A stretch of 20,421 nt of DNA from a virus: positions 1 to 20,421 of the IMG/VR virus record IMGVR_UViG_3300034418_000448; one strand, given 5' to 3'. A program made the position numbers and the translations under genes. A model generated the notes under the pieces. It had not been told where the DNA came from and did no database searches. It saw nothing but the letters and a program-made list of their open reading frames with translations. Positions 3,564 through 5,223 of this stretch are shown here, in pieces (position 1 is the first letter of the stretch; each line of letters opens with the position of its first letter).

Positions 3564-3628
3564 TAGGTTGTGTATGAGTTGCCTTTGTGGTTAACACTTA
3601 ATTTTCCCAATCTGTGTATTTCTCCATA

Positions 3629-3642
3629 TATACGTACGTATA
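3629..3642. repeat. 14-bp perfect palindrome TATACGTACGTATA
   Basis: TATACGTACGTATA is a perfect palindrome with no spacer, alternating purine and pyrimidine throughout. It is followed directly by a CCCGGGGTGTGGCCCC stretch containing a further short inverted repeat (GGGG-N5-CCCC, 3646-3658). A dimeric protein site or cruciform-prone element is plausible. No function can be assigned from sequence alone. Confidence 0.5.
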
Positions 3643-3948
3643 CCCGGGGTGTGGCCCCTGCCCGCCACCTTTGATCCGCGCGATTTGCGCCTGATTGCGA
3701 CACTTTTTATCTTATTCGCGCCAGCGCATGGTGGAATTGCGCGAGCATTCTATAAAAAAAGCAGCATTTTCAAGGGGTTGGTGGTGGATAGTCAATGGAT
3801 ATCCTATGAATTGACGCCATACCATAGTCAATAGATGCATCGAATAATGAAAGGCAACACAAAACTATAACGGCGATGCATATAATCTTAGCCATACCCC
3901 AACAATTTAGTGACGCCTAACATTTAAGAACACACCATGAACAAATCC
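3643..3948. other. Non-coding stretch with GC-rich patch and short repeats
   Basis: Positions 3643-3760 are clearly richer in G and C than the A/T-rich DNA on both sides, and contain clustered GCGC and GATTTGCGC/GATTGCGAC repeats. Further right, ATAGTCAAT occurs at 3788 and 3824, and the 8-mers ATGCATCG (about 3835) and CGATGCAT (about 3872) form an inverted repeat. A 61-codon rightward ORF across the patch lacks a convincing start context and is not called. The patch might be foreign, part of an origin, or the phage attachment site for the integrase at 10.3 kb. None of these is proven. Confidence 0.4.
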
Positions 3949-4020
3949 CTTTATACTTTATATATAAAAAATAAAAAATTTTTCTTAAAAATAATTTTAT
4001 CAATAAAAACAAAAACTTAA
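3949..4020. other. Nearly pure A/T tract, possible unwinding element
   Basis: About 70 bases contain almost no G or C and include runs such as TATATATAAAAAATAAAAAATTTTTC. Such tracts melt easily and often curve. Between divergent transcription units of a phage with its own primase and helicase, this suits a replication-origin unwinding element. It could instead be an UP-element-like promoter enhancer. The 4021-4235 stretch to its right is ordinary A-rich sequence in which I see no gene. Confidence 0.4.
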
Positions 4021-4235
4021 CCAGGCATACCATCTTAACTTATTGAAAACATTACAAATCTTTTTTCTTTACTTTGTTTTTTTCTTCATGATAGGATTTA
4101 ACCAAGATGAACGGCAAGACAGATTAGAGTCTTACAAAAATTATCTGATACCGATAAAGCCAAAAGCATCTAGAAACTGAATATCTAAACGCCACGGCAA
4201 ATTGATACAGTTTCGACAAGGGAATAAAAAAAGAA

Positions 4236-4264
4236 TTGACTAACCGAATAAAGCGAATTAGGAT
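4236..4264 (+). promoter_or_regulatory. Candidate rightward promoter for the early block
   Basis: TTGACT (4236-4241) is separated by 17 bases from TAGGAT (4259-4264). The -35 matches five of six consensus bases, the -10 four of six. A weaker overlapping candidate is TTGATA (4202-4207) with TAAAAA (4225-4230), also 17 bases apart. Transcription from either would run through the structured RNA region at 4320-4590 before the first rightward gene at 4624. A lone TATAAC at 4599-4604 has no -35 partner but could drive a very short leader if activated. Confidence 0.45.
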
Positions 4265-4319
4265 TTAGAGACTGAAACAAAACGAAAGGACCAAAAAACC
4301 AGACATTCAAAAAATGCTA

Positions 4320-4590
4320 GGTATCCATCACCAGCAAAAGCCCCAAAAGCACCCAAAAAGTGTAGGCATAGAACGATGGCAAGTGGACACATGAAATCCT
4401 TGTGGGTGGTACAGACCATAATGCACCAGAAGTGCGCCTAATTACCTGACCTACTGTAACGCCTATGCGCCTAGTTAGCCATAAGGTGAGGTCGAAGCGA
4501 GAGGGTATCCAGTAGGTCGGAGAGTGCCAAGACGGGGGTAGAGTGTAACTATCGGCAGCGGTAGTGTATGCCATGCACAAAACCCCCATT
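4320..4590 (+). ncRNA. Putative structured non-coding RNA or long 5' leader
   Basis: This stretch is less A/T-rich than its left flank, lacks a convincing ORF and folds into several helices. The main one pairs 4446-4456 with 4510-4520 over 11 bp, enclosing a smaller stem (4460-4467 with 4480-4488, one bulge). A second domain pairs 4534-4539 with 4582-4587 (GGGGGT/ACCCCC), then 4543-4547 with 4574-4578, capped by a 7-bp hairpin at 4548-4565 with a GCAG loop. A small hairpin sits at 4423-4435. The non-Watson-Crick pairs are G-U on the plus strand and would be A-C mismatches on the minus strand, so a rightward RNA is favoured. It resembles no RNA class I can name. Confidence 0.55.
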
Positions 4591-4623
4591 TCTTAATCTA
4601 TAACTAGACCAAGGGGTGACACA

Positions 4624-5223
4624 ATGAGTGTTGAAAATATTCTTGCCATATATAAGATGGCAACACCAGAAGAAAAGCGTGACGGTATTGTGTGGTATGC
4701 TGACGCATTGCGAGACTGTACCCGAATTGCGCTTGACACATGTGTTCCATTGCATGTTGTCGTTGGTGTGGTAGCAAGTCTATCGCCAAACAACAAGTGG
4801 GAACGCAATATTCAAAATGCAAAAGACTTAATCCATGCCTGTGTAAATGGGGATGGTATCGACAGTGTGAAGGTATGTACCTACCACAAAATGAAAGAAA
4901 AAGCATGGTCAATACTTGAGGCAATGCCTGACCATGATGGCGTGATTACTATATTGAATGGGCAAAAAATTATCTCATTCTATCGTAACATCATGGGTGA
5001 CGACACATGCACAATTGACGGTCACGCACGTAATATTGCATACGGTGAACGTGTGGGCTTGACAGATGACAAGACCAACATTGGTGTAAGGGAATACCGT
5101 ACACTACAGGCAGAGTATGTTCAGGCCGCGAAACGCACAAGGGTTAATGGGCGTGCGCTTAAAGCGTTTGAATTGCAAGCCATCACATGGGTGACATGGC
5201 GCAGAATACACAACATCAAGTGA
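4624..5223 (+). CDS. First early gene: possible HhH-type DNA glycosylase-like protein, 199 aa
   Basis: ATG at 4624 follows an AAGGGGTGA ribosome site. The protein is helical. Residues 48-70 (VGVVASLSPNNKWERNIQNA with flanks) resemble the segment of helix-hairpin-helix glycosylases that reads like SPQ..WE.NI. Residues 110-137 contain LNGQKIISFYRNI then CTIDGHARNI, similar in layout to the LPGVGxKTA...VDTHVxR motif of the endonuclease III family. K115 and D132 would match the catalytic Lys and Asp. This is motif-level similarity only; I recall the family as an uncharacterised phage DUF. As first gene behind the structured leader it is probably expressed early, perhaps acting on host or phage DNA bases. 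Confidence 0.75.
   Translation: MSVENILAIYKMATPEEKRDGIVWYADALRDCTRIALDTCVPLHVVVGVVASLSPNNKWERNIQNAKDLIHACVNGDGIDSVKVCTYHKMKEKAWSILEAMPDHDGVITILNGQKIISFYRNIMGDDTCTIDGHARNIAYGERVGLTDDKTNIGVREYRTLQAEYVQAAKRTRVNGRALKAFELQAITWVTWRRIHNIK

Follow-up and report, generated by a model that had tools for sequence, protein, structure and literature searches.

In the phage genome analyzed here (the window, meaning the whole stretch of 20,421 nucleotides), the late genes occupy the minus strand from position 126 to about 3700 and the early genes begin on the plus strand at 4624, and the divergent intergenic region that separates them raises the question of whether it encodes a new structured RNA, as an initial annotation had proposed, and of what such an RNA might do. 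Judging from its genes, the source of the window is an HMO-2011-like marine phage, in that its DNA polymerase is 76% identical to that of Puniceispirillum phage HMO-2011 and 67% identical to those of Roseobacter phages CRP-345 and CRP-1; the DnaB-like helicase, integrase, phage endonuclease I and ribonucleotide reductase found in the window are also consistent with the HMO-2011 group. The RNA region gave no nucleotide match among sequenced phages, we found no paper treating HMO-2011 together with noncoding RNA, and the words "noncoding", "intergenic" and "promoter" are absent from the one article on HMO-2011-type phages that was searched for them (PMC8528129).

Promoter and limits of the transcript

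The features identified at this locus are collected in Table 1. The identical -35 and -10 elements, followed by GAGACT (or GATACT), are kept in the RNAs of the type found in the window (class I) and in most relatives carrying other RNA bodies, and the transcript is predicted to start near 4271. The initial annotation had placed the RNA at 4320-4590, a start that falls inside hairpin HA; promoter and predicted RNA start lie about 50-85 bases further upstream, and the RNA is longer than had been claimed. At the other end, the candidate terminus near 4595 consists of a conserved G+C stem followed by a tail with only five U in eight positions, and we infer its terminator-like nature, as a simple terminator scan, limited to short loops, made no call there; as a terminator, this tail would probably be leaky. 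Because a promoter scan between the RNA and gene 4624 gave no convincing promoter in class I, the class I RNA would also be a 5' leader. Upstream of the promoter, a conserved inverted repeat, GAAACTG...CAGTTTC, occupies 4178-4222 (in L015 it reads GACACT...AGTGTC), and by eye another promoter-like motif can be made out at about 4070-4095; a further short structured transcript upstream of the 4236 promoter is possible.

Table 1. Features of the early RNA locus in the window, and RNA bodies found at the same site in related loci
Feature	Position	Strand	Basis or remark
Sigma70-type promoter, TTGACT-N17-TAGGAT	4236-4264	+	Promoter scan; A-rich immediately 5'
Structured noncoding RNA, class I, about 325 nt	4271-4595	+	Ten distinct homologous sequences, full-length nhmmer matches; covariation
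Hairpin HA (4316-4318/4333-4335, 4320-4322/4330-4332)	4316-4335	+	Loop in pseudoknot
Pseudoknot, HA loop 4325-4329 with 4375-4379	4325-4379	+	3 of 5 pairs with both-side changes
Hairpin HB (4340-4342/4365-4367, 4349-4352/4360-4363)	4340-4367	+	Compensation; includes GGCATA
Hairpin HD (4380-4383/4399-4402)	4380-4402	+	100% paired; 3 of 4 pairs with both-side changes; loop conserved
Hairpin HE	4406-4419	+	98% of cells paired; wobble changes only
Hairpin HF	4423-4435	+	Almost invariant across class I; strongly conserved including flanks
Long helix HG (4446-4456/4510-4520)	4446-4520	+	100% of cells paired; 5 pairs with both-side changes
Exchangeable insert within HG	4457-4509	+	Three unlike versions in ten sequences (alignment A2)
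3' domain: P1 4534-4539/4582-4587, P2 4543-4547/4574-4578, P3 4548-4553/4560-4565	4534-4587	+	Conserved UAUGCC strand, 4567-4572
U-rich tail AUUUCUUA behind P1 stem, putatively terminator-like	4588-4595	+	Read from the sequence
First early gene, DUF7178/phrog_3842 protein, no assigned function	4624-5223	+	Pfam and PHROGs
Class II body (L003, L012, L095)			Own body after shared promoter
Class III body (L006, L007, L017, L021, L024, L154, L190)			About 500-560 nt
Class IV body (L060; further members L027, L070, L078)
Class V body (L065, L068, L074)			About 160-200 nt
L112 body			Separate body after shared promoter

Evidence for a selected fold

Relatives were gathered through the first early gene (80 loci) and, in addition, through searches with DNA patterns taken from the RNA itself. 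Ten distinct sequences, so far all from one phage clade, carry the whole RNA and form class I, namely the window (W), L002, L004, L015, L025, L083, L090, L108, L109 and L110. Each matches the class I profile end to end at E < 1e-86, values that indicate membership rather than discovery since the profile was made from those same ten sequences, so that the independent evidence comes from the pattern searches. In the alignment of the ten (A2) we named 53 pairs, counted as eleven helices.

On its own, the fold that had been proposed for the window is no evidence of structure, as the single-sequence folding energy is no better than that of shuffled sequences (z = -0.85 for the plus strand and 0.66 for the minus; 19 of 100 shuffles fold as well), and the case for a real RNA fold is instead made by compensating mutations in the nine other sequences. 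Standard pairs occupy 97.7% of the 521 helix cells, compared to 31-47% when partners are slid by one to three columns, and changes on both sides of a pair are seen in 19 of the 53 pairs, compared to none or one in the slid controls; because the structure was chosen while viewing the alignment, the percentage paired is inflated more than the count of both-side changes. None of 500 shuffles matched the observed values, with the exception of the number of pair types, and RNAalifold, which was blind to the named structure, returned -57.4 kcal/mol against -22.5 ± 4.1 for column shuffles. Under a stricter, home-made tree-based null, ten of the 53 proposed pairs were significant after correction over the proposed pairs. 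Tree-based covariation over all column pairs of the ten class I sequences gave no significance, a comparison with little power given ten related sequences. The proposed helices thus carry compensatory changes beyond the controls, as expected of a structured RNA under selection, and the compensation that was to be looked for among homologues is present in class I.

HA has two pairs with both-side changes, with GCU/AGC becoming GCG/CGC in L025, and the pseudoknot formed by its loop reads CCATC/GATGG in the window, TCATC/GATGA in L004, TCGTC/GACGA in L108 and L110, and TCCAC/GTGGG in L090, and pairs in nine of the ten sequences, L083 being the exception. L108 carries two copies of the HA hairpin whose loops differ, each with its own matching partner in the sequence. 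In HB, GCC/GGC becomes GGC/GCC in L004, L108 and L110, and GCAC/GTGT becomes GTAC/GTAT in L002. This hairpin also disposes of the pseudoknot once suggested between GGCATA and TATGCC, as the GGC of the former pairs locally with GCC, and swaps with this HB partner while TATGCC stays constant. HD shows CAAG/CTTG replaced by CGGA/TCCG, CAGA/TCTG or CAGG/CCTG, and L083 has an extra HE/HF-like copy (GCAT/ATGC). The 11-bp long-range helix of the initial annotation, HG, was borne out in all ten sequences, with GACCTACTG/CAGTAGGTC changing to GACCTACCC/GGGTAGGTC in L004 and to GATACACTG/CAGTGTATC in L015. The segment enclosed by HG, where a nested stem had been drawn, is occupied by other sequence in seven of the ten, and shows almost no variation in the remaining three. 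As for the three-helix 3' domain, P1 and P2 stood, being 100% paired, with three both-side changes in P2 (GTGTA/TGCAC to CTATG/CATAG), and P3 did not, as seven relatives have a CCGC/GCGG or CCG/CGG stem in its place.

The strand was originally argued from G-U pairs, an argument that is reasonable in kind and weaker than claimed, as most wobbles lie at helix ends. The named structure contains 39 G-U and 2 A-C cells, many of them at helix ends, and this count favours the strand that was drawn because the structure was drawn on the plus strand and is hence biased; when each strand's own predicted structure was used, G-U and A-C counts did not discriminate for class I. The assignment to the plus strand is therefore based on how promoter and tail are oriented, and on wobbles inside helices: at internal positions of HG and P2, U-G is exchanged for C-G or U-A. 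The U-G, C-G and U-A interchange inside HG, the orientation of the promoter and the compensation in helices and pseudoknot make it most improbable that this is a DNA-level element, such as a replication origin or operator array, or a chance folding, in spite of the divergent intergenic position and the ordinary single-sequence folding energy that would suit one.

No gene was found in the region, as had been stated. The 90-aa minus-strand ORF of the window (4317-4589), which has amino-acid similarity in relatives, was considered as a coding candidate and rejected, since its frame is broken by stops in L004, L015 and L108 and by frameshifts in L002 and L025 and has no conserved start; no conserved reading frame across the RNA was found in the class I relatives. 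Nor was any known RNA class recognized. Rfam 15 at gathering thresholds returned nothing for the window and 20 related loci but tRNAs in the relatives, and permissive scans gave two sub-threshold matches only for 3600-4700 (E of at least 1.2, both on the opposite strand and not overlapping the RNA), and one tRNA only for ten related loci. In the homologous loci that were scanned with ARAGORN, no tRNA or tmRNA overlapped the RNA. A separate tRNA-Trp (CCA) does lie near the early RNA in L006 (3737-3810), L009, L024 and L025 (2905-2978), in the last of these before the first early gene. With compensation, no conserved frame and no Rfam match, the core proposal holds, in that the stretch separating the early promoter from the first early gene encodes a new structured RNA on the plus strand.

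Other RNA bodies at the same site

In other loci, the promoter leads into unlike RNA bodies, with at least five body architectures that range from about 160 to 560 nt and seem to use pseudoknotted hairpin loops as modules. RNAalifold consensus energies were -73.8, -75.6 and -70.7 kcal/mol for classes II, III and IV, against shuffled-column means of -35.0, -20.8 and -38.1, and in all three the plus strand folds better than the minus. Class III, with 49 consensus pairs showing both-side changes in RNAalifold and no Rfam match, is a candidate large noncoding RNA in its own right (2083-2638 in L006, 1989-2488 in L017, and before the early gene in L154 and L190). The body of L018 is class II-like, and the usual promoter is absent there. 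A recurring module, recognized by eye and unscored, has a hairpin loop pairing with a strand just 3' of it, often beyond a second hairpin, for example GATGCAA/TTGCATC in class II, GGTGTAA/TTGCACC in L018 and GCCAGT/ACTGGC in L168.

The 3' domain is often common to differing bodies. A covariance model of it (R1), built from class I, class II and L112, matched class IV loci and L018, all outside the model, at E-values that are rough, owing to short calibration (L027, 1.3e-7; L060, 9.8e-5; L070, L071 and L073, 1.5e-4; L018, 3e-4; and, more weakly, L056, 0.0026, and L078, 0.0043), and these matches lie on the expected strand just upstream of early genes. The model gave no significant match in isolates HMO-2011, CRP-1, CRP-345, CRP-603, CRP-2, CRP-207 and CRP-13, or in 72 loci found through a neighbouring late gene. 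Bacterial homologues were also considered and rejected: the 3'-domain pattern had seven matches in a 257-Gb collection, none with a paired P2, which points to chance.

Cultured HMO-2011, CRP-1 and CRP-345 may carry an early RNA of their own. They have about 880-990 nt ahead of the early genes, and share an element GCCTCG...GCAGAGG (L099 5948-6031, L101 4830-4913 and L103 4512-4587, respectively) whose inner hairpin covaries (GTAATC/GATTAC, GGTATC/GATACC, GCAATC/GATTGC). In L006, L008, L017, L018, L021, L024 and L093, we also observed repeated promoters, TTGAC...GGGGTGTAATGT, each followed by a CCC-containing half-site, so as to form operator-like palindromes in front of small early genes, an arrangement that would suit control by a single phage repressor.

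Possible modes of action and relation to known RNAs

Starting from the observed fold, the conserved promoter, the lack of coding and the persistence of the RNA while its neighbours change, the explanation we favour, and to which we would give roughly an even chance, is that of an early noncoding RNA working as RNA, and most likely acting on a host factor in trans. Once the phage DNA enters, 4271-4595 would be transcribed by the host RNA polymerase from the 4236-4264 promoter, and the transcript would fold into its hairpin-plus-pseudoknot modules, long helix and 3' domain; the latter would stop enough polymerases to yield a stable RNA, with the others continuing into the early genes. The RNA could then accumulate free and, early in infection, act in trans on a protein or an RNA of the host, with the variable body possibly deciding the binding partner, and the conserved ends securing synthesis and 3'-end formation. 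The gene that follows the RNA is in fact not constant, being DUF7178 in W and L004 and a GP88-family gene in L090, L109, L110 and L095; L002 and L025 have inserts separating RNA and gene, which in L025 amount to about 220 extra bp and include the tRNA-Trp. Such retention of the RNA despite a differing downstream gene and these extra bases speaks against a gene-specific switch. Moreover, a new TTGAC...TAATGT promoter comes right after the terminator-like stem at the end of the RNA in class III and in L018, which suggests a stand-alone transcript.

Less probable, but a serious contender, is a cis-acting leader of the early operon, in which the nascent RNA would set transcription through attenuation at the 3' stem or through modification of RNA polymerase. 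The put RNA of phage HK022, two small stem-loops that act in cis and modify RNA polymerase to read through terminators, is likewise a structured RNA directly after an early phage promoter. A leader would fit an RNA that always follows the first early promoter and precedes the early genes, a class I gene without a promoter of its own, and a terminator-like 3' domain. However, the stem and new promoter of class III and L018 imply that those loci do not require the RNA in cis, no conserved alternative pairing that would open P1 was seen, and the large, exchangeable bodies, which range from 160 to 560 nt, fold in unlike ways and end in a terminator-like stem, differ from the short put element.

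An immunity-type RNA seems unlikely. The CI RNA of phage P4 stops early transcription by pairing in trans with leaders of its own type, and is, similarly, a structured, leader-derived early RNA beside a terminator; by analogy, all or part of the leader RNA would pair with same-type leaders and halt early transcription, and rapid change of the body would create new immunity types. Conserved ends, swapped bodies, changing loops, leader position and terminator-like end would all fit, as would an integrase, which is present in the window and, according to PMC8528129, in all HMO-2011-type isolates. The covarying loops, however, pair inside the same RNA and are thus engaged in cis, inspection found no self-antisense segment or antisense target, and the early RNA is larger than CI RNA and pseudoknotted.

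It is very improbable that the RNA serves gene 4624 as a riboswitch or translational regulator, with the ribosome-binding site AAGGGGUGAC hidden by the CCCC strand of P1: the GGGGU of this site could base-pair with the 3' strand of P1 in the sequences of W and L004, but L012 has AAAAGGUGACAC though P1 is kept, the complementarity, and any anti-SD switch with it, is not conserved among relatives, the L002 and L025 inserts intervene, and two unrelated gene families follow the same RNA.

To our knowledge, large structured phage RNAs are few, and none has a known function. GOLLD and ROOL, which are large, phage-borne, pseudoknotted or ornate, and without an assigned function (PMC12286853), are the nearest in kind, and by Rfam covariance-model match the early RNA is a member of neither. 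GOLLD has a conserved 3' and a variable 5' region (PMC12286853), but exceeds 800 nt, compared to about 325 nt here, and the early RNA has a fixed site after the first early promoter. ROOL resembles the early RNA in being a phage-borne ornate RNA with several pseudoknots (PMC12286853), but the early RNA is shorter, has another fold and no Rfam match.

The early RNA is a well-supported new large phage RNA in a group of phages infecting marine bacteria, and its position implies synthesis at the very start of infection; the other structured RNAs found at the same site in relatives provide a natural series of variants for studying RNA action before phage proteins. As a tentative suggestion, HMO-2011-like marine phages may possess a dedicated early RNA locus with a constant promoter, a frequently constant 3' end and an exchangeable, rapidly replaced body, and these bodies might be RNA effectors, made by the host polymerase before any phage protein, whose diversity would stem from an arms race with competing phages or the defences of the host.
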